NCBI GenBank assembly: GCA_013359255.1
Contig: JABWCF010000002.1
Location: forward strand, 62,001 to 126,000
Direction of reading: 5' to 3'
Length of the DNA stretch: 64,000 bases
Source: Flavobacteriales bacterium
Lineage (GTDB): Bacteria; Bacteroidota; Bacteroidia; Flavobacteriales_E; Vicingaceae
Shown here piece after piece: positions 2 through 33,404 of the stretch. The notes under the pieces were generated by a model. It saw only the letters and a list, made by a program, of their open reading frames with translations. It did no database searches and was not told the DNA's origin. How positions within the stretch are numbered: the first letter of the stretch is position 1; each line of letters starts with the position of its first letter. The position numbers were made by a program, and so were the translations under genes.

Positions 2-925
2 AAACCCATAGTACAAAGATTGGCCGAAGACATTACTGCCGTTTGCGAAGAAAAAGTAGAAGAAATAGCCTTTATCATAGGTCGCTTTGGAGAAGAAACC
101 GAAAAAAACCTGCTTGCTATCGCCTCTAGTCTTGGAGCAAAAGGTAAAATCTTTTATCAGGACGAGGCTTTAGGTACAGCACACGCCATTCTTTGTGCAA
201 AAGAAAGCCTAAATGGAAAAGTAATTATTGCGTTTGCCGATACCCTTTTTAGAGCCGATTTTAAACTGAACGAAAACGAAGATGGTATTGTGTGGGTTCA
301 GCAAATTAAAGACCCTAGTGCTTTTGGCGTTGTAAAACTCGATGCCGAAGGAAAAATTACCGATTTTATTGAAAAACCTAAAGACTTTATTTCTGACCTC
401 GCCATTATTGGCATTTATTATTTCCACGATGGAGATAATTTAAAAAGCGAACTGCAATACCTCCTCGATAATAACATAAAAGAAAAAGGGGAATACCAAC
501 TTACCAACGCCCTCGAAAACATGAAAAATAAAGGCCTTCGCTTTGCTGCCGGCAAAGTAACCGAATGGCTCGATTGCGGAAACAAAGATGTAACAGTTTA
601 TACCAATCAGCGCATTTTAGAGTTTATTAAACAAAAAGAAAATCTTATAAATCCAAAATCCATTATACAAAACAGCAAAATAATAGAGCCCTGCTTTATC
701 GGAGAAAATGCAGAAATAATAAACTCTACCGTTGGCCCCCACGTATCGGTAGGGAAGGGAACCATTATTACAAACAGCACCATTACAAACAGTATCATTA
801 GTGAAAACACACGTATAACCAATGCCACCCTAACGAACTCTATGCTAGGTAATTTTGTAGAATACGTTGGCTTTAACGGTACAGAAAAACAGGTAAGTAT
901 TGGGGATTATACCACCATAAAATAA
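2..925 (+). CDS. Sugar-phosphate nucleotidyltransferase, 5'-truncated by window edge
   Basis: Probable NTP:sugar-1-phosphate nucleotidyltransferase of the RmlA/GalU-like family, making NDP-sugars for envelope polysaccharides. The reading frame is open to the left edge, so the N-terminal glycine-rich nucleotide-binding loop lies outside the window. The visible part begins KPIVQRLAEDI, the segment that normally follows that loop. Further signs are the FADTLF motif, EKPKDF (the typical EKP lysine region) and WLDCGNK. The C-terminal ~80 residues are hexapeptide-like repeats (IINSTVGPHVSVG, ITNSTITNSIIS), consistent with a left-handed beta helix. It is followed after 5 nt by a TPR lipoprotein gene, probably in the same operon. 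The TTG at position 20 is internal, not the true start. The exact sugar cannot be told. Confidence 0.85.
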   Translation, partial: KPIVQRLAEDITAVCEEKVEEIAFIIGRFGEETEKNLLAIASSLGAKGKIFYQDEALGTAHAILCAKESLNGKVIIAFADTLFRADFKLNENEDGIVWVQQIKDPSAFGVVKLDAEGKITDFIEKPKDFISDLAIIGIYYFHDGDNLKSELQYLLDNNIKEKGEYQLTNALENMKNKGLRFAAGKVTEWLDCGNKDVTVYTNQRILEFIKQKENLINPKSIIQNSKIIEPCFIGENAEIINSTVGPHVSVGKGTIITNSTITNSIISENTRITNATLTNSMLGNFVEYVGFNGTEKQVSIGDYTTIK

Positions 926-930
926 ATGCA

Positions 931-2661
931 TTGATAAAATCGCTTTTAAAATATTTTCTAATTACCTCTCTTTTTTTTGTTTCCTGCAAAACATCTAAAC
1001 ACTCCGGAAACAAAAATGCAGCCGACCGTGATTTTTCTGAAAAAGACCAAGTTAAATTCGAACATTACTTTTTTAATGCATCAAAAGAAAAAATACTTGG
1101 TAATTATGAGTTGGCACTTAACCTATTTCTGCAATGTGCCAAAATAAACCCAAAAGAACCCACTCCGCTTTACGAAATAGCCCTTATTTACGAACAAAAC
1201 AATGATGCAACATCTGCTTTACCTTTTGCAGAAAAAGCAAGCCAATTAGATCCGGATAATTATTGGTTTCAACTGTTATACGGCCAGGTTTTATATAAAA
1301 ATAATCAGGTAGCCAAATCCATCAAAGTATTCGAAAAATTGTTAGAAAGAAACCCAAAAGAACTGGAATTGGCCTTCAATTTAGCCGGTATTTATACTTA
1401 CGAAAAACTTCGGGAAGCGATAAGCCTTTATGATCGTATTGAATCGCAAATAGGAATTTCTGAAGATATTTCTTATCAAAAACAACAACTCTACCTCAAG
1501 CTCAACGATGTGGAAGGGGCTGCAAGTGAAATAAAAAAATTGATTCTGGCTTTTCCTACCGAAACAAAATACTATGGAGTATTGGGCGATATTTATTTTA
1601 CCAACGGACAAGAAGAAAACGCATTGGAAATATATCAGAAAGTATTAAAAATAGACCCTGAAGCACCTTTTGTACATCTCTCGCTTGCCGATTACTACCG
1701 TAAAAAAGGCCAAAAAGCCTTATCGTACGAGCATCTGATGCTCGCCTTTAAAAATCCCGAATTAGACATTGATACCAAAATGAAAATTTTGCTTTCGTAC
1801 TATTCCCTAAGTAATAACAACGATGAATTAAAAAAACAAGCCTTTGAACTTTGCGATATACTTACAGGGGTTCACCCCAATGATGCCAAATCATATTCTA
1901 TTTACGGAGACTTTTTATACCGAGATGGGCAACTTAAAGAATCAAGAGAAGCCTTTAAAAAATCTGTTTCATTAGATCAAAGTAGGTTTCCTGTATGGAA
2001 TCAGATTTTAGTAATAGATATTGAACTTTCCGATTTTGCTTCTTTGGTAGAAGATGGAATACAAACCATAGAGCTTTTTCCAAATCAACCCACCGCCTTC
2101 TTTTTTTACGGATACGGATTGGTACAGAAAAAAGATTATACGAAAGCCTTAGAATACCTTAATATTGGAAAAGATTTGGTTTTTAACAACGATGAGTTGC
2201 TTACCCAATTCTATTCTACCTTGGGCGAAGCATATTACCGTCTTAAACGCTTCCCAGAATCGGATAATGCATTTGAAAACGCCTTACGCAAAAACCCAAA
2301 CGATGCCACAATACTAAACAACTACAGCTATTATCTTTCGGAGCGAGGCGAAAAATTGGAAAAGGCCGCAGAAATGTCGGCTAAAAGCAATAATTTACAA
2401 AGTGGACAACCCTCTTTTTTAGATACCTATGGCTGGATTTTATATAAACAAGCAAAATATGCCGAAGCCAAAGAATGGCTTAAAAAAGCCATAGACAGCG
2501 GAGGCAACAACAATAGCACTATTTTAGAACATTATGGAGATGCTCTTTACCAGCTAGGCGAAAAAGAAAATGCCCTGATGTACTGGAAAAAAGCAGAAGA
2601 AAATGGTGGTAAATCCGAAAATTTGAAAAAGAAAATTGCCGATAAAAAGCTATATGAATAA
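931..2661 (+). CDS. TPR-repeat lipoprotein
   Basis: Predicted 576-residue tetratricopeptide-repeat protein anchored as a lipoprotein. The N-terminus is hydrophobic and ends in the lipobox-like FFVSC, followed by a charged stretch. The rest is a chain of ~34-residue helical hairpins with TPR spacing (for example LGDIYFTNGQEENALEIY and LGEAYYRLKRFPESDNAFE). The start must be TTG at 931: the only nearby ATG (926) is out of frame and hits a stop at once, and no other in-frame start lies between the upstream stop and the signal sequence. TPR proteins are scaffolds; here the partner is unknown. It sits between a nucleotidyltransferase and DUF4292/EnvC-like genes, with overlapping junctions downstream, which suggests an envelope-assembly operon. 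Confidence 0.85.
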   Translation: MIKSLLKYFLITSLFFVSCKTSKHSGNKNAADRDFSEKDQVKFEHYFFNASKEKILGNYELALNLFLQCAKINPKEPTPLYEIALIYEQNNDATSALPFAEKASQLDPDNYWFQLLYGQVLYKNNQVAKSIKVFEKLLERNPKELELAFNLAGIYTYEKLREAISLYDRIESQIGISEDISYQKQQLYLKLNDVEGAASEIKKLILAFPTETKYYGVLGDIYFTNGQEENALEIYQKVLKIDPEAPFVHLSLADYYRKKGQKALSYEHLMLAFKNPELDIDTKMKILLSYYSLSNNNDELKKQAFELCDILTGVHPNDAKSYSIYGDFLYRDGQLKESREAFKKSVSLDQSRFPVWNQILVIDIELSDFASLVEDGIQTIELFPNQPTAFFFYGYGLVQKKDYTKALEYLNIGKDLVFNNDELLTQFYSTLGEAYYRLKRFPESDNAFENALRKNPNDATILNNYSYYLSERGEKLEKAAEMSAKSNNLQSGQPSFLDTYGWILYKQAKYAEAKEWLKKAIDSGGNNNSTILEHYGDALYQLGEKENALMYWKKAEENGGKSENLKKKIADKKLYE

Positions 2662-3499
2662 CCATTTCAGATTAAAATATTTTATCGGGTATTTTCTTTT
2701 TCTTCCCTTATTTTTTACATGTAAACCCAAAAAAGAACTTTCAAAAAAAGAGCTGAAAGACTTAATTGACGAAGTATACACCACAGAGCAAATACTCGCT
2801 AAACTAAAAGAAAACGAATTTAAATTTGACGGGTTAAGCATTAAAGCCACCGTTGAATATAATGCCAACGGGAAAAAAAATTCATTTAAATCTACCCTTC
2901 GGATAAAAAACGATAGTGCCATTTGGGTATCAGTTACCCCGCTAATGGGCATAGAGGTTGCCAGAGCTTTAATTACACCTGATACCGTTTTAGTAATAGA
3001 CAGGATACACTCTACTTATTTTGCAGGAAATTTTAATTACATTAATAAAATTTTTAATGTTGATTTAGATTTTAAAATGCTGCAATCCCTAATGATAGGC
3101 AACAGCATTGAATTTGAAGAAAATGAAAAAATATTTTCTCAAATAGACAAGCACATGTTTTTTTTGGGAACCACAAAAAAAAGGAGAGTAAAAAAAGCCA
3201 TTAAAAAAGATAAAGAAAGTAAACTAAAAGATGACAATCAATCGATATGGCTCGACCCAGAATCGTTTAAAATAAAAGAACTTTTTATAACAGACCACCG
3301 TTCCGAACAATCTTTAAGAGCCGTTTACTCAGAACATCAGAAATTAGAAGAACAGTTCTTTCCGGTAAAAATGCGTTTTTTTATCTCTTCGAACCAAAAT
3401 GCATATCTTGGCGTTGAATTTTCTAAAATTACACTAGAAAGCGATTTAAATATGCCTTTTTCAATACCCGAAAAATATGAGCCTGTTGAAATTAAATAG
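2654..3499 (+). CDS. DUF4292 family lipoprotein
   Basis: 281-residue protein resembling the DUF4292 family of Bacteroidota, thought to have a LolA/LolB-like fold and so perhaps to handle lipoproteins or lipids. The chosen ATG at 2654 overlaps the stop of the TPR gene (ATGAATAA arrangement) and gives a lipoprotein signal ending LFFTC; a TTG 18 nt upstream is the alternative. The middle contains SFKSTLRIKNDSAIWVSV, MGIEVARALITPD and a lysine-rich insertion (KKRRVKKAIKKDKESK). Its last 23 nt overlap the start of the EnvC-like gene, so the two are probably translationally coupled. Family placement is by recall of sequence pattern, not by search. Confidence 0.75.
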   Translation: MNNHFRLKYFIGYFLFLPLFFTCKPKKELSKKELKDLIDEVYTTEQILAKLKENEFKFDGLSIKATVEYNANGKKNSFKSTLRIKNDSAIWVSVTPLMGIEVARALITPDTVLVIDRIHSTYFAGNFNYINKIFNVDLDFKMLQSLMIGNSIEFEENEKIFSQIDKHMFFLGTTKKRRVKKAIKKDKESKLKDDNQSIWLDPESFKIKELFITDHRSEQSLRAVYSEHQKLEEQFFPVKMRFFISSNQNAYLGVEFSKITLESDLNMPFSIPEKYEPVEIK

Positions 3500-4703
3500 C
3501 TTTCTGCTCCTTTTTTTATTTTTTACTTCATTTGCTTCGGCTCAAACAAAAGCTGAACTAGAAAAAAAGAAAAAACAACTGCTTAACGATATTTCTTACA
3601 CCAATAAATTATTAAAAGAAAACGAAGAAAAAACTAAAAATTCTTTTACAGAACTTAACCTTATAAAGAAAAAAATTAATGACCGGCAGGAATTAATTTA
3701 TACGATTAACAGTGAAATAAAATACATAGATAAACAGATACAAAAAAACAACGACATTATTCTTTCGCTGAAAAACGATTTAACAAAACTAAAACAAGAT
3801 TATGCACACATGATTTATTATGCCAATAGAAACAAAAGTTTTTATTCCCGCATCATGTTTGTGTTTGCAGCAAACGATTTTAATCAGGCGTATAAGCGAA
3901 TGAAATACCTTCAGCAATATGCAGGATTTAGAAAAAAACAAGCCGAATCGATTGTTAAAACACAAGAAACTATTTCTAAAAAAATAGATGAATTAGATGA
4001 AAAAAAACAGGAACGGGTTTCGTTAAAAGAAAACAACGAGCATGAAAAAAAACAACTTGGTTCAGAACAAGAGCAACAACAAGTAGTAATAAGCAAACTA
4101 CAAAGCCAGGAAAACGAGCTGAAAGAACAATTAAAAAAGAAACAAAAAGATGCCGATGCATTGCAAAAAGCCATTGAAGAAATTATACGAAAAGAAATAG
4201 AAGCCGCTCAAAAAGCGGCACAGAAAGCAGGAAATACAACCTCTGTCAATAAAGGAGGATTTCCTCTAACCCCTGAAGCTCAAAAACTATCGAATACCTT
4301 TGCCTCCAACAAAGGGAAACTTCCATGGCCTGTTACCGAAGGTGTTATAACCGGTGCATTTGGCACCCATGAACATGCTGTATTAAAGGGTATTATGGTT
4401 GATAATAACGGGATTGATATAAGTACTAAAAAAGGCACACAAGTTCGATCTGTTTTTGAGGGTGAAGTAAGTTCAGTAATTATTATTCAGGGAGCCGGAA
4501 AATGTGTAATGATAAGGCATGGAGAATATTTAAGTGTTTACTCTTACCTTTCAGAAGTTTTTGTTAAAAAAGGGGATAAAGTTTCTACAAAACAAGTACT
4601 TGGAATTCCCGCCACCGAAGAGAATGCATCGAAATCTGAAGTACACCTCGAAATATGGAAAGGCACCACCAAACTTAATCCTGAGTACTGGATTTATAAG
4701 TAA
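3477..4703 (+). CDS. EnvC-like murein hydrolase activator (M23 domain)
   Basis: 408-residue periplasmic protein with a signal peptide ending FASAQ. Residues ~25-245 are long, charged coiled coil (ELEKKKKQLL, then a KQLGSEQEQQQ region). Residues ~280-405 form an LytM/M23 peptidase-like domain (GTQVRSVFEGEVSSV, GKCVMIRHGEYLSVYSYL). The canonical M23 zinc ligands look altered: NNGIDIS stands where active enzymes have HxGxD, and YSYL where HxHL is expected. This fits an EnvC-type activator of N-acetylmuramoyl amidases rather than an active peptidase. The start overlaps the DUF4292 gene, and the gene ends 2 nt from the convergent rpiB. Role in septal wall splitting is inferred from the family. Confidence 0.85.
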   Translation: MSLLKLNSFLLLFLFFTSFASAQTKAELEKKKKQLLNDISYTNKLLKENEEKTKNSFTELNLIKKKINDRQELIYTINSEIKYIDKQIQKNNDIILSLKNDLTKLKQDYAHMIYYANRNKSFYSRIMFVFAANDFNQAYKRMKYLQQYAGFRKKQAESIVKTQETISKKIDELDEKKQERVSLKENNEHEKKQLGSEQEQQQVVISKLQSQENELKEQLKKKQKDADALQKAIEEIIRKEIEAAQKAAQKAGNTTSVNKGGFPLTPEAQKLSNTFASNKGKLPWPVTEGVITGAFGTHEHAVLKGIMVDNNGIDISTKKGTQVRSVFEGEVSSVIIIQGAGKCVMIRHGEYLSVYSYLSEVFVKKGDKVSTKQVLGIPATEENASKSEVHLEIWKGTTKLNPEYWIYK

Positions 4704-4705
4704 AT

Positions 4706-5128
4706 CTAAATTTTTTGCACTCTTCTTTCATGTCTTCCACCTTCAAAGTGGGTATTTAAAAACACTTCTACACACTCTTTGGCATCGTTGTTACTTATAA
4801 ATCTTGCAGGTAAAGCAATAATATTGGCATCGTTGTGTTCTCTTGCCAACTTTGCCAACTCTTTATTCCAACATATAGCACTTCGTATTCCTTTATGTTT
4901 ATTAGCTGCCATACTAATTCCATTACCACTTCCACAAATTAAAATACCGTATTTAAATTCTCCTTTTTCTACTTTCAAAGCAAGGGTATGAGCAAAATCA
5001 GGATAATCTACACTTTCTTCAGAATGTGTTCCAACATCCTCTAATTCAAAACCTTTTTTTATTAATTCTGCCTTTAAGTATTCCTTTAATTGGAATCCGG
5101 CATGGTCGCTCCCTATTATTAATTTCAT
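4706..5128 (-). CDS. rpiB: Ribose 5-phosphate isomerase B
   Basis: 140-residue RpiB/LacA/LacB-family sugar isomerase interconverting ribose 5-phosphate and ribulose 5-phosphate in the pentose phosphate pathway. It begins MKLIIGSDHAGFQLK, the family signature. The catalytic cysteine is Cys65 in ICGSGNG, which also forms the anion hole, and His98 is in REHNDANI. Length is normal for the family. It is convergent with the EnvC-like gene (2 nt apart). Its upstream region is the 369-nt AT-rich gap shared with the divergent MORN-repeat gene, where a TACTTTTG box on this strand (5272-5265) is a candidate promoter. Cytoplasmic. Confidence 0.93.
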   Translation of the reverse strand: MKLIIGSDHAGFQLKEYLKAELIKKGFELEDVGTHSEESVDYPDFAHTLALKVEKGEFKYGILICGSGNGISMAANKHKGIRSAICWNKELAKLAREHNDANIIALPARFISNNDAKECVEVFLNTHFEGGRHERRVQKI

Positions 5129-5264
5129 GTTTATAATTAATTTTTGCTTTTTATAACTTTTATTTGCTTTTTAACTTTTAAAATCTATTGATGTTAGTTC
5201 TTTAATATAACAATACTTTATAGAAAAAATATGTAGATTAAATACAAACACTTTTTAAGCATTT

Positions 5265-5278
5265 CAAAAGTACATTTG
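5265..5278. promoter_or_regulatory. Overlapping divergent -7 promoter boxes
   Basis: CAAAAGTA (5265-5272) read on the minus strand is TACTTTTG, and TACATTTG lies on the plus strand (5271-5278). Both match the Bacteroidota -7 consensus TAnnTTTG, and they share the central TA. They would fire toward rpiB and toward the MORN-repeat gene. No convincing -33 TTG was seen for either. The rest of the 5129-5497 gap is very AT-rich with no gene, hairpin terminator or DnaA box that I can see. Confidence 0.4.
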
Positions 5279-5497
5279 TTTTTAAAAGAAACATTATTAA
5301 CTATTATTATTCATTGTTAATAAATAATAAATTTTATACATTTTAAAGGGTTTTATACATTCTTAATTGTTAATTTTATTGATTAAAAACTACTATTAAA
5401 AGTTTGTAAAATAAAAAATGGGTTGTTTATTAACAAAATGAACATGCTAGTAATAACACCATAAATATTTAAATTATTTTTTTATAATTAATATATA

Positions 5498-7063
5498 ATG
5501 TTTGTTCACTTTTTAAAATATGTATTCTTCATTTTTGTGCTGTTATTTGCTCTAACAAAAAATACCTTATATGCCCAACAAAAAAATAAAGTAAATCCTA
5601 ATGGGTATAATACATTTTATTATTCTAACGGCAATATATCAAGCGAAGGAAATATGAAAAATGGAAAACCGGAAGGTTATTGGAAAACTTATTTTGAAAG
5701 CGGAACCATTAAAACCGAAGGAAATAGAGAAAATTTTTTGTTAGAAGGTACATGGATATTTTACAGAGAAAACAAAACCATTGAAAAGGAAATTAATTAC
5801 AAAAAAAATAAAAAAGAAGAGTGGAGCTTTTATTATAATGATAGTACAAAACTTATAAAAAAAGAATTTTATAAAAACGATTTAAAAGATAGTGTAACCA
5901 TTTTATACTACGAAAATCAAAAAGATAACAGAATATACAAAACCATTCCCTTTATAAAAGGAATAGAAGAAGGTTCCGGATTTGAATACTCTTTAGATCA
6001 AAAAATAATAACTATTATACGCTATAAAAAAGGAGCAATTCTGTCTGAAGAAAAAATAAACAGATACGATAAAAACGGACTTAAACAAGATGTTTGGAAA
6101 GAATTTTACGAAAATGGTAATTTAAAAACAGAAGCTAGGTATATAGACGATAAGTTAAGCGGATACTATAAAGAATATACTAAAGATGGTAAATTATTAA
6201 AAGCAGTGTTGTATATAGATGGAGAAATACACGAAGATGAACGACTACAAACATTAGACTTGCGACAGGAATTTTACGAAAACGGTTTACCAAAAGTAAT
6301 CGGAACCTATAACGTAAGAGGTGAAAAACATGGTAAGTTTAAGTACTTTAATGAAAACGGGCAACTTGAAGAACAAATTATTTACAACAACAATGTAATT
6401 GTAGCAAAAGGAAAAATAGACGAAGAAGAAAGAAAACAAGGATACTGGGAAGAATTTTATCCAAACGGAGCTATTAAGAGTAAAGGAAAATATATAGATG
6501 GAGAAAAAATAGAAAACTGGGAGTTCTTTTTTTTAAGCGGAAAAAAAGAACAAGAAGGCACTTATGTAAAAGGCGGAAAACAAAACGGAACCTGGACATG
6601 GTATTATGAAACAGGAGAAATACTAAGAAAAGAAGAGTTTAGAAAAGGGTTGGAAGATGGTATTTTCATAGAACATTTCCCCGATGGTAAAGTAATTACA
6701 CAAGGTGAATTTTTGGAGGGTAAAAAAGAAGGATTTTGGTTTTACGAATTAAACGACCACAGAGAAGAAGGAAACTATAAAAACGGGCTAAAAGATGGTT
6801 CTTGGAAGTATTTCAATGTACTTACCAACAAATTGGTTTTTGAAGGCACTTTTTTTGAAGGCCAAGAAAACAGTAAATTTAAGTTTTACTATCCCAGCGG
6901 AAAATTATATGAAGAAGGAACTTACGCACTAGGAAAAAGAGAAGGCATTTGGAAAAGATACAACGAAATGGGAGAAGTAATTATAACATTTGATTACAAC
7001 AACAACAACGAAATAAAAATTGACGGAAGTACCTTAAAATTTCCGAATCATGCACCCGAATAA
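5498..7063 (+). CDS. Secreted MORN-like (YwqK-type) repeat protein
   Basis: 521-residue protein with a signal peptide (hydrophobic residues ~8-24, ending LYAQ) and then repeats almost to the C-terminus, each ~22-25 residues with the pattern GxWxxYYxxGxxxxEGxYxxGxxxG (for example GYWKTYFESGTIKTEG, GTWTWYYETGEILRKEE, GIWKRYNEMGEVI). This is the MORN-variant/YwqK-type repeat, a beta-hairpin solenoid. Automatic tools often label it 'toxin-antitoxin YwqK antitoxin', which the context does not support. The stop is 3 nt before the start of a PAS histidine kinase, so the three genes to 10441 look co-transcribed. It may sense an extracytoplasmic signal for that kinase; this is inference only. Confidence 0.85.
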   Translation: MFVHFLKYVFFIFVLLFALTKNTLYAQQKNKVNPNGYNTFYYSNGNISSEGNMKNGKPEGYWKTYFESGTIKTEGNRENFLLEGTWIFYRENKTIEKEINYKKNKKEEWSFYYNDSTKLIKKEFYKNDLKDSVTILYYENQKDNRIYKTIPFIKGIEEGSGFEYSLDQKIITIIRYKKGAILSEEKINRYDKNGLKQDVWKEFYENGNLKTEARYIDDKLSGYYKEYTKDGKLLKAVLYIDGEIHEDERLQTLDLRQEFYENGLPKVIGTYNVRGEKHGKFKYFNENGQLEEQIIYNNNVIVAKGKIDEEERKQGYWEEFYPNGAIKSKGKYIDGEKIENWEFFFLSGKKEQEGTYVKGGKQNGTWTWYYETGEILRKEEFRKGLEDGIFIEHFPDGKVITQGEFLEGKKEGFWFYELNDHREEGNYKNGLKDGSWKYFNVLTNKLVFEGTFFEGQENSKFKFYYPSGKLYEEGTYALGKREGIWKRYNEMGEVIITFDYNNNNEIKIDGSTLKFPNHAPE

Positions 7064-16206: not shown

Positions 16207-16782
16207 TTATTTAGTTCCAATATTTTTTGGTTCTGCTTCGGAAATACGTTGTGGGTAAATTTCCTTTATTATTTTTTGTTGGTCTTCGTTTAAATCTTTA
16301 AAAACTTTTCCGAATCTTTTTTTAGATTCTTCGTCTCTTACCTCATTATAAGCAGCAATTAATTCGTTTTGTACTTTTATGTACATTCCATAAGAGGTAC
16401 CACGGTCGTTTTGCAAAGAAACTACTTGTTTAGAAACCATCACATTTCCTACTCCGGTAATGTCTTTGGCTTCTTTTTCGGGCATATCTTCTCGGTCTCT
16501 TGGGTTTACAATAAATTCTTTGGCTTTTTCGCGTAATTGGGTTACTTGTATGTAATCACTTTCAACCAATAACTGGTCGTTTGCGTTAATAAGAATTTCT
16601 AAGATATTTCTTTGTTTAATTTTAATGTCTTCGTTTTGGGGTTCATCAACGGGTGGAGGGAGTTTACGCAATAAGCCTTTATCTACATCCATAGTAGTGG
16701 TTACAAGAAAGAAAATAAGAAGCAGAAAAGCGATATCTGCCATTGAGCCTGCGTTTATTTCCGGTAATCCTCTGCGTGCCAT
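16207..16782 (-). CDS. exbD: ExbD/TolR-family biopolymer transport protein (first copy)
   Basis: 191-residue ExbD/TolR-like protein. The N-terminal helix SMADIAFLLLIFFLVTT holds the conserved Asp16. The periplasmic part is longer than in the second copy and has an insertion at ~95-130 (NPRDREDMPEKEAKDITG) and a charged tail. Its start codon shares base 16782 with the stop of the 133-aa membrane protein gene, so the two are translationally coupled. Confidence 0.9.
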   Translation of the reverse strand: MARRGLPEINAGSMADIAFLLLIFFLVTTTMDVDKGLLRKLPPPVDEPQNEDIKIKQRNILEILINANDQLLVESDYIQVTQLREKAKEFIVNPRDREDMPEKEAKDITGVGNVMVSKQVVSLQNDRGTSYGMYIKVQNELIAAYNEVRDEESKKRFGKVFKDLNEDQQKIIKEIYPQRISEAEPKNIGTK

Positions 16783-17183
16783 TATTTAAACATTTTAGAA
16801 ATTTCAGAAAACACTGCGACTCCTATAGCTCCTAAGCCCAATAGATAAAAAGCAATTAACCCGGCACCTACCATTTTAGAAGAACTTTCGGTTACAATGT
16901 CTTTGTAAGCAGGGAGTACTTCGCTTCCGGCCATAGCATAAGAAATACCAAAAACAACTACTAAAAGGCCAACTCCCAATAGTGCGGTTTTTGCATTTTT
17001 AGGGTTTTGTGCCATAATAATTATGGGAAATATGATAGCGGCTGCTGCCGAAATAAAAAGTAGAATATAGCACCATGTAATGAGTAAACTTTCGCTTACC
17101 GCACTCAGGTAAAATAATATTCCCAACAAGGCTGAAATACCAAGTAAGGATAATCGTATGATGGTCATTAATTTGTCAGACAT
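16782..17183 (-). CDS. Four-helix membrane protein of the ExbB/ExbD operon, unknown function
   Basis: 133-residue hydrophobic protein with four predicted membrane helices (about 8-27, 35-57, 67-86 and 103-127) and short loops. I do not recognise a named domain. It lies between ExbB (5 nt upstream) and ExbD (overlapping by 1 nt), so it is almost certainly made with the proton channel and may be an accessory subunit. Function is inferred only from position. Confidence 0.8.
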   Translation of the reverse strand: MSDKLMTIIRLSLLGISALLGILFYLSAVSESLLITWCYILLFISAAAAIIFPIIIMAQNPKNAKTALLGVGLLVVVFGISYAMAGSEVLPAYKDIVTESSSKMVGAGLIAFYLLGLGAIGVAVFSEISKMFK

Positions 17184-17188
17184 AGGTC

Positions 17189-17953
17189 TTATTTTTTGTT
17201 TGTCAATTCGTGTTTAACCAATAAGTCTACTAAAGAGATGGAGGCATTTTCCATATCGTTTACAATGCCATCAACTTTAGCAATAATATAGTTATAAAAT
17301 ATTTGTAAAATCATGGCAACAACAAGACCAAATACAGTGGTCAAAAGAGCTACTTTAATACCTCCGGCTACAAGAGAAGGAGAAATATCTCCAGCTGCTT
17401 CAATGGCATCAAAAGCTGAAATCATACCGATTACCGTACCCATAAATCCTAACATGGGGGCTAATGCAATAAAAAGAGAAATCCAAGAAACTCCCTTTTC
17501 TAATAAACCCATTTGAACGCTACCATAAGAAACAACAGATTTTTCAACCATTTCTATTCCTTCGTGGCTTCTGTCTAAGCCTTGGTAAAAAATACTGGCT
17601 ACCGGTCCACGTGTGTTGCGGCAAACTTCTTTAGCGGCTTCAATACCTCCGCTGCTTAGTGCTGATTCGATATTGCTGAGAAGTTTATTGGTATTAGTGG
17701 TTGCCATATTTAAGTAGATGATACGCTCTATGCATATAGCCAAACCTAAAATAAGAGAAATTAATACAATCCCCATAAATTCGGGGCCACCTTCAATAAA
17801 TTTTTGTTTTATAATCTGATGAAATGTTTCGTTCGATGCAACAGCAACAGCGGTTTCTTCGGTAGCTGCTTTTTCATCTTGTGCATACACCTGATTGATG
17901 GTTGAAAAACACATAAATCCGGCCATTGATAGAATTGCAAATAGTTTTTTCAT
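17189..17953 (-). CDS. exbB: MotA/TolQ/ExbB proton-channel family protein
   Basis: 254-residue inner-membrane protein, first gene of the Exb operon. It has an N-terminal hydrophobic segment resembling a signal peptide (ends NQVYAQ), a helix at ~57-77, a cytoplasmic loop and the paired helices of the MotA/TolQ/ExbB domain (LAPMLGFMGTVIGMISAF and VALLTTVFGLVVAMILQIFY). With the ExbD subunits it forms the proton-driven motor that energises outer-membrane transport through a TonB-like partner. No TonB gene is in the operon. Confidence 0.92.
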   Translation of the reverse strand: MKKLFAILSMAGFMCFSTINQVYAQDEKAATEETAVAVASNETFHQIIKQKFIEGGPEFMGIVLISLILGLAICIERIIYLNMATTNTNKLLSNIESALSSGGIEAAKEVCRNTRGPVASIFYQGLDRSHEGIEMVEKSVVSYGSVQMGLLEKGVSWISLFIALAPMLGFMGTVIGMISAFDAIEAAGDISPSLVAGGIKVALLTTVFGLVVAMILQIFYNYIIAKVDGIVNDMENASISLVDLLVKHELTNKK

Positions 17954-18052
17954 AGATGTTCTGGTTAAATTTATTTTTCTTGTTTGGTTTTTATGTTTAC
18001 TTTTTTTACGATTTGAATTTGTGTTTACATTTTTATTTACGCTTTATTATTG

Positions 18053-18140
18053 CGGAGAGAGAGGGATTCGAACCCTCGGTACCCTTTTGAGATACACACG
18101 CTTTCCAAGCGTGCTCCTTAAGCCACTCGGACATCTCTCC
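18053..18140 (-). tRNA. tRNA-Ser (GGA anticodon)
   Basis: 88-nt cloverleaf with the long variable arm of a serine tRNA. Acceptor stem GGAGAGA (18140 side) pairs with TCTCTCC, anticodon stem CACGC/GCGTG encloses the loop TTGGAAA (anticodon GGA, reading UCC/UCU), and the T-arm contains GGTTCGAATCC. Discriminator base is G; a full CCA is not encoded (GCA follows the stem). It stands alone between the Exb operon and the asparaginase gene. Confidence 0.95.
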
Positions 18141-28085: not shown

Positions 28086-28240
28086 TTTTATTATGTAAAG
28101 CGAACGGTTTGGCAGCTTTGCATTGGGGCAGGTATTTTAGCACCATGCTCGATACGAAGAACCGTACATTGAGCAAACACAAAAATTTCAACTTAATTGC
28201 GTTACTCTATATAAAGGAAAAACCGATGCCAATGGTTGAT
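28086..28240 (-). repeat. Eroded second copy of the attC-like palindromic site
   Basis: This gene-free stretch (27965-28274) aligns collinearly with the palindromic site at 32172-32309. Shared blocks are TTTTATTATGT (28086), TTTTAGCAC (28135), CGAAG (28155), CACAAAA (28178), ATTGCG (28196) and ACCGATG (28222). The spacings between the TTTTAGCAC, CGAAG and CACAAAA blocks are identical in the two sites (20 and 23 nt). The right arm has an insertion after ATTGCG, and the GTTAGCGGT core has become CCAATGGTT, so folding is probably lost. It lies just after the stop of the P-type ATPase gene, where a cassette's recombination site would sit. Confidence 0.7.
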
Positions 28241-32171: not shown

Positions 32172-32318
32172 TTTTATTATGTTGGGTAACGTTTTTCGGC
32201 TTGCCGCAGTGGGGGATTTTTAGCACAAAAGTTCAATCGAAGCACTGCACTTTGATTAACCACAAAAGTGTCATAGAAGCACGTCAGCCCCCATTGCGGC
32301 AAACCGATGTTAGCGGTT
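32172..32318 (-). repeat. attC-like imperfect palindrome (cassette recombination site)
   Basis: Arms CGGCTTGCCGCAGTGGGGG (32197-32215) and the region 32288-32306 pair at 17 of 19 positions across a 72-nt middle. The middle contains a nested inverted repeat (GTTCAATCGAAG with CTTTGATTAAC) and two direct copies of CACAAAAGT...GAAGCAC. Outside the arms are GTTAGCGGT (32309-32317) on one side and GGTAACG (32185-32191) on the other. Long arms, bulged bases and nested structure resemble integron attC sites, but the outer cores do not match RYYYAAC/GTTRRRY exactly. A 62-codon frame through it is a by-product. No other gene lies in 32050-32364. Confidence 0.7.
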
Positions 32319-33373
32319 CGGCTTTCTTTTCTGTCGTCTGTGCTTAGCTGAATATTCATTGTCACTACTGAATTGTCGCAATGTAATTTTCAATTTCTTG
32401 ACTTTCTCCAAAAGCAGTTGTTGGGTTGTTGAATGGTGGTTTGTCAGAATTTTGTGGACTTAAAATCTCACCGTTTTCTACTTCGTCTCCGTAATTTTCT
32501 GTTGTTCTAAATCTTCCTTTTCCCCTAAAATTCAAAATGACCGCTTGAACTCCTGGAATGATACAAATTTGAAGTCCGGTTTCTTCACTTTCAAAAAAGT
32601 CGTTTTGGTTAAGTCGCATACGAACAGTCTTGCCTTTCAATAAACTTTCAGGGCAGTATCCGTTCCACATATTTGAAATTTTCGTTTCAGTCATTTTTGT
32701 TGTTTTTAAGTTATTGCCGAAAGTAAAAAGAAATAGTTCAATGTTTTCTCCTTGTGTGTCAAGGTCATCGGCAAGCTGTCTTGTAAGCTGCAAAAAGTCA
32801 AGATACTTTTTCTCAGCATTGTCATATCGGATTTTGTCTAACAGTTGAAAATTTGAATATGTCTTGCTTGCAAAAACATCAATAAGTCGCTGGTCAAGTA
32901 TTAAGCAAGGATTGTCGTTAAATGATATTTTAAAAAAATAAAGTAGTTTGCTGTAAGTTGATAGCCCAAGTCCAGCAACGTTCCTAAAAGTTAATGTCAG
33001 TTCGTTAAAGTCTTTGGTTGCTGGATTTGGTTTTTCTCTTAAAGACCGCAATACGTTTTCAATCGTGTCAATGTGTTTGAGAATATTTATAAAATGATTT
33101 CCACGCATTCCTGCTGTGTAGCCCCAATAAATTGTCTTGATAATTGCTTTTCTTGGCTCGTTTGTTTCAAAAATGTCTTGACGGCTAATAGTCAATGTTT
33201 TGTTGTCGCCAAACAACTTGTCATTGAGATTTTTTAGCCACTGAATTTCATTTTCTGCTTTTGTCCAAGTCGTTCGTTTAGTCGTAAAACATTGTTGTCT
33301 TACAGGCAAGTTTGAGATTAATATTTTGTAATTGTTAATGTTCATTCGTGTCGTCTTTTAAGCTGACCGCTAA
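32190..33373 (-). mobile_element. Putative integron-like gene cassette (one gene plus attC-like site)
   Basis: A 1184-bp unit read on the minus strand: it begins TTAGCGGTCAGC just after a G (33374), carries one gene, then ACCGCTAAC, the long palindrome, and ends at the G of AACGTTACC (32190). Joining its two ends would recreate GTTAGCGGT opposite the internal ACCGCTAAC, giving a fully symmetric site. That is the rule for integron cassettes cut at G^TT. The unit sits 30 nt after the stop of an aldehyde dehydrogenase gene. No integrase gene is in the window. Boundaries are inferred. Confidence 0.6.
32365..33345 (-). CDS. Cassette-borne protein, OGG/HhH-like domain plus C-terminal domain
   Basis: 326-residue protein, the only gene of the putative cassette. 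Residues ~1-210 resemble uncharacterised OGG-type (8-oxoguanine glycosylase-like, helix-hairpin-helix) proteins: VAGLGLSTYSKLLYFFKI followed by CLILDQRLIDVF, where Asp could take the catalytic place. Residues ~216-326 begin at an internal Met (MTETKISNMWNGYCPESLL) and look like a separate small domain (KMRLNQ-type, FFESEETGLQICI, AVILNFRGKGRFR), joined by a short Lys/Thr linker; this may be a fusion of two neighbouring genes. A base-excision or defence role would be a guess. Start ATG 33345 lies 21 nt inside the cassette end. Confidence 0.65.
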   Translation of the reverse strand: MNINNYKILISNLPVRQQCFTTKRTTWTKAENEIQWLKNLNDKLFGDNKTLTISRQDIFETNEPRKAIIKTIYWGYTAGMRGNHFINILKHIDTIENVLRSLREKPNPATKDFNELTLTFRNVAGLGLSTYSKLLYFFKISFNDNPCLILDQRLIDVFASKTYSNFQLLDKIRYDNAEKKYLDFLQLTRQLADDLDTQGENIELFLFTFGNNLKTTKMTETKISNMWNGYCPESLLKGKTVRMRLNQNDFFESEETGLQICIIPGVQAVILNFRGKGRFRTTENYGDEVENGEILSPQNSDKPPFNNPTTAFGESQEIENYIATIQ

Positions 33374-33374
33374 C
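33366..33374. repeat. Cassette end, inverted partner of 32309-32317
   Basis: ACCGCTAAC, the exact reverse complement of GTTAGCGGT at 32309-32317, with partial extension (both ends continue to GCTT). It marks the upstream edge of the putative cassette, between its gene and the aldehyde dehydrogenase gene. Confidence 0.7.
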
Positions 33375-33404
33375 TTGTTTATACCCGCCATAAAAGAATT
33401 TATC

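Follow-up and report, generated by a model that had tools for sequence, protein, structure and literature searches.

A probable lone mobile cassette from an integron-like gene-collecting system in Bacteroidota

Integrons are the classic bacterial route for collecting and shuffling genes. Sedentary chromosomal integrons, e.g. the Vibrio superintegron, combine a tyrosine recombinase and one insertion site beside its gene with tandem single-gene cassettes that all point in one direction. A hairpin site with GTT cores follows each gene, the ends of a cassette are mutually complementary, and the cargo is wide and mostly accessory. All of these traits are shared by the Bacteroidota system described here. 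However, its recombinase lacks the insertion of ~42 residues found in IntI and has an extra N-terminal part of ~95 residues, and the recombinase gene is co-directional with the array (divergent in one side clade only). Its cores mostly read GTTA(G/T/C).. rather than GTTRRRY. Across the phylum the sites keep their loop repeats and a length of ~124 nt, the complementarity of the ends covers ~15 nt with a fixed mismatch, and the attI has a sequence of its own.

Cassettes can also lie far from a recombinase, as CALIN (attC clusters without integrase) or as solitary cassettes at secondary integron sites. The cassette described here and the arrays of contigs C2, C18 and C19 of the same genome are placed likewise, but the ectopic insertion site resembles the system's own attI. 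The pdif modules of Acinetobacter plasmids, flanked by XerC/XerD sites, are also gene modules moved by an Xer-related tyrosine recombinase. Their short dif-like sites stand on both sides, whereas here short dif-like XerC/XerD sites at both ends were not found; there is one long folding site per gene, of 124 nt with AAC/GTT ends, and an attI.

By sequence, the closest proteins are archaeal XerA and the integron-like tyrosine recombinases (NCBIfam NF040815, named by NCBI 'site-specific tyrosine recombinase/integron integrase'; the 'integron-like subgroup' of Smyshlyaev et al., 2021, PMC8138268). The parts of that paper available to us give no cassette arrays, attI or sites for members without the IntI insertion, and call this insertion essential for integron function (PMC8138268). 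In surveys, integrons are almost absent from Bacteroidota, with only cassette-less integrases and one complete integron reported (IntegronFinder 2.0, PMC9024848). No earlier description of the present system was found in the literature searched, which excluded preprints and most subscription journals, and its novelty is likely.

The cassette in the window and its insertion site

The window, meaning the whole stretch of DNA that was analysed, comprises 64,000 nucleotides of contig JABWCF010000002.1 from a Flavobacteriales bacterium (GCA_013359255.1). A first-pass annotation, made from the letters alone, had proposed a cassette with integron-like logic at 32190–33373, bounds which are exact under the G^TT convention. 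Judged on sequence, this unit is very probably a solitary mobile gene cassette of an integron-like Bacteroidota system with its own recombinase and site sequences. The features are as follows.

33373 to 32190, minus strand: putative whole mobile gene cassette (TT...G), from TTAGCGGTC (33373) to ...AAAAACG (32190); its termini obey the family rule
32183..32319, minus strand: attC-like folding site (cassette recombination site), 3' of the gene, 137 nt, identified by the covariance model and stem covariation
32197..32215, no strand: site stem arm 1, 17/19 complementary to arm 2
32288..32306, no strand: site stem arm 2, 17/19 complementary to arm 1
32309..32317, minus strand: inner core (R'' equivalent) ACCGCTAAC, reverse-complementary to where the cassette starts
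32188..32190, minus strand: outer core GTT (AAC on the plus strand), the 3' junction of the cassette (G^TT); the homology of cassettes shared between genomes breaks at this GTT
32365..33345, minus strand: cassette gene, 326 aa, OGG-like, PF21790 (Pfam E 6.8e-32)
33371..33392, minus strand: attI-like insertion site TATGGCGGGTATAAACAAG^TTA, the presumed cassette target, which fits the attI consensus TATAWACAAG^TT of complete systems
28098..28238, minus strand: probable decayed second site of the same family, 26 bits, E 8e-4 within the window, stem partly broken

In the direction of the gene, the unit runs ...TATGGCGGGTATAAACAAG^TTAGCGGTCAGCTT - gene - AAGCCGAACCGCTAAC - hairpin - AAAAACG^TTACCC..., and the attI-like junction is TATGGCGGGTATAAACAAG^TTAGCGG. 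The palindrome with 19-bp arms noticed in the first-pass annotation pairs at 17 of 19 positions, as it had stated, and the AAC at the outer edge (32188–32190) is also present. The nested direct repeat is real, and lies in the loop (32219–32245 against 32256–32282, 78% identity). On the plus strand the inner edge (32309–32317) reads GTTAGCGGT, with its exact reverse complement at 33366–33374, again as proposed. The idea of complementary cassette ends stood, but their length of 9 nt had to be revised to ~15 nt (GTTAGCGGTCAGCTT against GTTAGCGGTTCGGCT), and the site, for which 32172–32320 had been suggested as the search sequence, is conserved in the family over ~32183–32319. The window site scores 131 bits (E 1.7e-26) with covariance model R1, among whose 54 members it is counted. 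Together with the ~28 sites of the genome and the covariation of the stem, both described below, this score puts the palindrome far beyond chance.

The cassette gene belongs to a family of putative 8-oxoguanine DNA glycosylases, and had no PADLOC match as a defence gene. In the distant genome G302 a relative was found whose DNA is 88% identical over 33372 to 32316, an extent that corresponds to cassette start to hairpin edge; no recognisable site was found at the hairpin edge of the G302 unit. The probable decayed second site at 28098–28238 lies directly 3' of a P-type ATPase gene.

The last motif of attI, GGCGGGTATAAACAAG, stands directly before the window cassette. There are two exact copies of the 13-mer TATAAACAAGTTA in the genome, at the cassette starts of C16 (the window) and C18, and 15 further copies have one mismatch, two of them also at array starts (C2 and C31). 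The exact 13-mer at cassette starts indicates that the window cassette was inserted at an attI-like sequence behind an aldehyde dehydrogenase gene. G001, the other genome of the genus, lacks the unit, and the flanking genes are adjacent there. The strain comparison suggested in the first-pass annotation therefore succeeded for the unit as a whole but not for a base-precise empty site, which was not found in G001, the ~130 bp between the two genes having diverged.

Folding sites and cassette arrays

A first search with the site DNA found eight places in the genome and matches in 20 of 60 related genomes, and a structural scan of the retrieved loci gave further site copies, of which 54 were oriented and aligned. 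Conserved secondary structure, as expected of attC, is seen in the covariation of the stem, where 17/17 pairs change on both sides. Stem cells are paired in 97.1% of cases, compared with 61.1% when shuffled and ~40% when slid. The covariance model (E < 1e-4) finds ~28 sites in the genome (30 listed), with arrays on C2 (minus strand, >10 sites), C19 and C18 (plus strand), C9, C12 and in the window. With the same model, 207 of the 295 class genomes sampled proved to have sites, for the most part as tandem arrays, and sites were found in 60 of the 118 genomes of the phylum sample. A search of this kind had been put forward as a check on the cassette reading, and it places the site beside different genes in most of the class genomes. 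No site was present among 50,697 phage records, and no recombinase in viral contigs.

In folding, the bottom strand of the sites is favoured over the top by a small margin only (35/54 sites, p 0.003), a weak preference that counts against a firm claim of single-strand recognition. An extrahelical base shared by all sites, as in attC, was not found in any column of the 54, the commonest stem irregularity being a G.T pair (25/54). The integron core consensus RYYYAAC / GTTRRRY occurs in 1/54 and 2/54 sites, and at 5/89 cassette starts, which agrees with the first-pass remark that the cores are unlike it.

The arrays consist of genes and hairpins in one direction, up to 10 cassettes and more, as in integrons. 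As read from the arrays, each cassette is one gene plus a folding site of ~124 nt that runs from AAC to GTT. The length of cassettes has a median of 944 nt (range 328–5599), and 132 of the 136 ORFs of at least 100 aa within them lie in the sense direction. In 75 of 89 adjacent cassettes the 6-mer after GTT is the exact reverse complement of the 6-mer before the AAC of the cassette's own site, against a mean of 2.4 (largest 11) in shuffled pairs, and a second set gave 83 of 99 (shuffles: mean 1.9, largest 10). These boundary statistics contradict a reading of the hairpin as a MITE, REP or terminator. The identity extends over ~15 nt, except that at offset 10 an A stands on one side and a G on the other, with a match frequency of 0.01 in both sets; this mismatch is a fixed polarity mark. 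The window cassette shows the same pattern at its ends. The R'/R'' complementarity and the G^TT junction are those of integrons, the cut base itself being deduced from complementarity and the homology break.

Hairpins that are palindromic, repeated, intergenic and 3' of genes could also be dispersed repeats (MITE, REP-like or terminator-type) which stand behind genes incidentally. This is hardly credible here, as each cassette start matches its own hairpin edge, whole units of gene and hairpin are exchanged exactly, the strand is fixed relative to the recombinase, and the arrays have a median cassette length of 944 nt. An Rfam search of a seven-site array returned two chance-level matches only.

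The recombinase linked to the arrays

A search of 60 relatives with the integron-integrase model TIGR02249 gave partial matches without the middle of the model, some of them just upstream of arrays, and none of the 60 genomes held a canonical integron integrase over the cut-off. An alignment (A5) built from the array-adjacent recombinases finds 149 of 295 genomes at E 1e-60. Among the 50 genomes whose recombinase is close (score of at least ~426 bits), 49 have sites, compared with 158 of the 245 others (Fisher p 1.1e-7), the genome lists of sites and recombinases having been compared by eye. The first-pass annotation had suggested a separate cassette family with its own recombinase, to be sought in site-rich genomes, and a tyrosine recombinase gene does lie directly upstream of arrays there. 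Its statement that there is no integrase is right for the surroundings of the lone window cassette but wrong for the genome, which has a suitable recombinase on G000:C31, next to an attI. All three checks that it suggested spoke for its reading.

At 46 recombinase loci, some of which were picked with their sites already known, 99 of 109 sites lie downstream on the same strand and none downstream on the opposite strand; seven upstream sites on the opposite strand stem from two loci of another clade. A cleaner test is given by 80 loci for whose choice only the recombinase counted; there the 174 sites without exception share its strand, and 172 are downstream. The 80 loci were taken from named genomes, chiefly of Flavobacterium, Lutibacter and metagenome-assembled Bacteroidota, and a few of them belong to genomes of the first set. 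Sites are present in 46 of the 80 loci by our own count. Many recombinase loci have no site, often with the contig ending just downstream, which is as expected if short-read assemblies break at arrays. Contig ends 100–300 bp past the recombinase are very frequent (L116, L117, L124, L132, L135, L136, L142, L068). Draft genomes probably lack a large part of the system.

In complete systems the order is tyrosine recombinase, attI ~100 bp after the stop codon (TATAWACAAG^TT) and array. An attI beside the integrase gene as the point of insertion is thus shared with integrons. Across 30 loci, TATA at -9 to -6 and AGTT are invariant, and two inverted copies of a similar motif can be seen by eye before the attI core in many loci, giving three copies with TATAWACAAG^TT as the last. 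In the source genome the recombinase gene lies terminally on contig C31, which breaks off after ...CGGGCATAAACAAG^TTAGTGG. The gene is not adjacent to the window cassette or to several arrays of the same genome, e.g. that of C2, which has a full attI and no recombinase. In a side clade (L148, G261:C2; L150, G115:C7) the array is divergent from the recombinase gene, as in classical integrons, and L150 carries a cassette shared with the main recombinase clade.

Cassettes that are real could still be moved by the housekeeping XerC/XerD, as Acinetobacter pdif modules are, with the IntI-like recombinase merely cargo or a neighbour. Xer-like recombinases occur in every genome searched, solitary cassettes and integrase-less arrays exist, and the insertion point in the Empedobacter plasmids described below is a short palindromic sequence. 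We nevertheless regard this as highly improbable, since the sites are 124-nt hairpins and not 28-nt dif, in dozens of arrays the recombinase precedes attI at a constant position and in a constant direction, and recombinase and sites co-occur in 49/50 genomes.

The catalytic residues of the recombinases are invariant. The spacing from KGxKDR to HxLRHS is 58–59 residues (34/34 and 74/74 proteins), compared with 100–101 in IntI, so that the IntI-specific insertion ('additional domain') found in integron integrases is absent; the gap recurs in an alignment with 2A3V, an IntI whose structure is known. In a tree rooted with Xer, for which support is given as SH-aLRT from a quick search, IntI forms one clade (100), 31 of 35 array-linked recombinases form another (93), to which four rows of a related group do not belong; the wider Bacteroidota recombinase group is sister to IntI (90). 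The array-linked recombinases do not group with IntI1, IntI2 or Vibrio IntI.

The best matches of an AlphaFold model of the recombinase (mean pLDDT 83) are IntI and archaeal XerA. Residues 1–75 (e.g. L152:10001-10270) form the extra N-terminal domain, which is conserved, with a W-S...W motif, and which no Pfam family matched at cut-off. Its best Foldseek match is SMARCAL1 HARP (E 0.11), and a second structural comparison gave eIF1/aIF1 (Z 7.0) and XPB (Z 6.2). SMARCAL1 HARP and XPB bind branched DNA. The resemblance of the modelled fold to HARP/XPB-DRD is too weak to name the fold, and can serve as a lead only.

The unit could instead be an ordinary integron cassette or CALIN, a member of the IntI/attC family whose integrase has been lost. 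The cassette logic, the range of site lengths, the GTT cores and the attI beside an IntI-related recombinase are alike, and the best Foldseek match of the recombinase model is IntI 2A3V. This reading is improbable, however, because the integron-integrase cut-off was reached in 0/60 relatives, the IntI insertion is absent from all proteins compared, just 1/54 and 2/54 sites carry the core consensus, and IntI and the array-linked recombinases are separate clades. The system appears integron-like in every feature visible in its sequences, with two defining traits lacking, the IntI insertion and the core consensus. For these two reasons it is not filed as an integron.

Exchange of cassettes, cargo and significance

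Comparison of genomes gives evidence for movement of whole cassettes. Genomes of two families (L130 and L150) share a cassette at 97.4% identity over 1440 nt, with unrelated flanks and homology that stops at GTT at either end. A second shared cassette has 95.8% identity over 2153 nt and is exact at the left end. Two plasmids of Empedobacter falsenii are 98% identical as far as one point, beyond which their cassettes differ, with lnu(H) and a second cassette in one and an unknown gene in the other. In the plasmid p1681-tetX (L231, NZ_CP040909.1), from E. falsenii of human faeces, lnu(H) is a cassette of the family, and the cassette after it contains mph(G)/mef(C) in reversed orientation. A Chryseobacterium plasmid holds both recombinase and array. 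In the plasmid of Chryseobacterium sp. SNU WT5 (L233), a group II intron reverse transcriptase gene is found inside the cassette array (16738–18054). Group IIC introns target attC sites, and the intron of L233 is reminiscent of them.

A cassette would be excised as a circle through recombination between its two GTT cores, with the recombinase recognising the folded hairpin, probably as a single strand. The circle would then be inserted at the G^TT of attI or, less often, at attI-like sequences elsewhere, which would explain the place of the window cassette after the gene for aldehyde dehydrogenase. The recombinase's N-terminal domain may take over the recognition of branched DNA in place of the IntI insertion.

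The cargo of the cassettes is wide, with 101 cassette ORFs matching 86 Pfam families. Matches to defence models include Hachiman HamB, Gabija GajB, AbiP2 and restriction-modification, and a TIR effector, mercury transport genes and a class A beta-lactamase occur in single cassettes. The beta-lactamase gene (G000:C2:47058-47963, L269:7058-7963, minus strand) is the first cassette of an array which starts at a full attI without an adjacent recombinase gene.

A broader reading, to which we give an even chance, is that this is a second, IntI-independent integron lineage which serves Bacteroidota as their main gene-capture platform. Its recombinase, sister to IntI but lacking the insertion, would read folded sites via an N-terminal HARP/DRD-like domain, and its pool of cassettes, with phage-defence and resistance genes, would cross families and plasmids and be missed by IntI-based tools. 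As a recombinase without the IntI insertion heads the same kind of arrays, the essential role assigned to this insertion becomes testable. Sites of this parallel system occur in about half of the phylum sample (60/118) and in 207/295 genomes of the class, and tools based on IntI and RYYYAAC are not expected to detect them. The system carries genes for phage defence, mercury transport and beta-lactamase and, on a plasmid of a human faecal isolate, the lincosamide resistance gene lnu(H).
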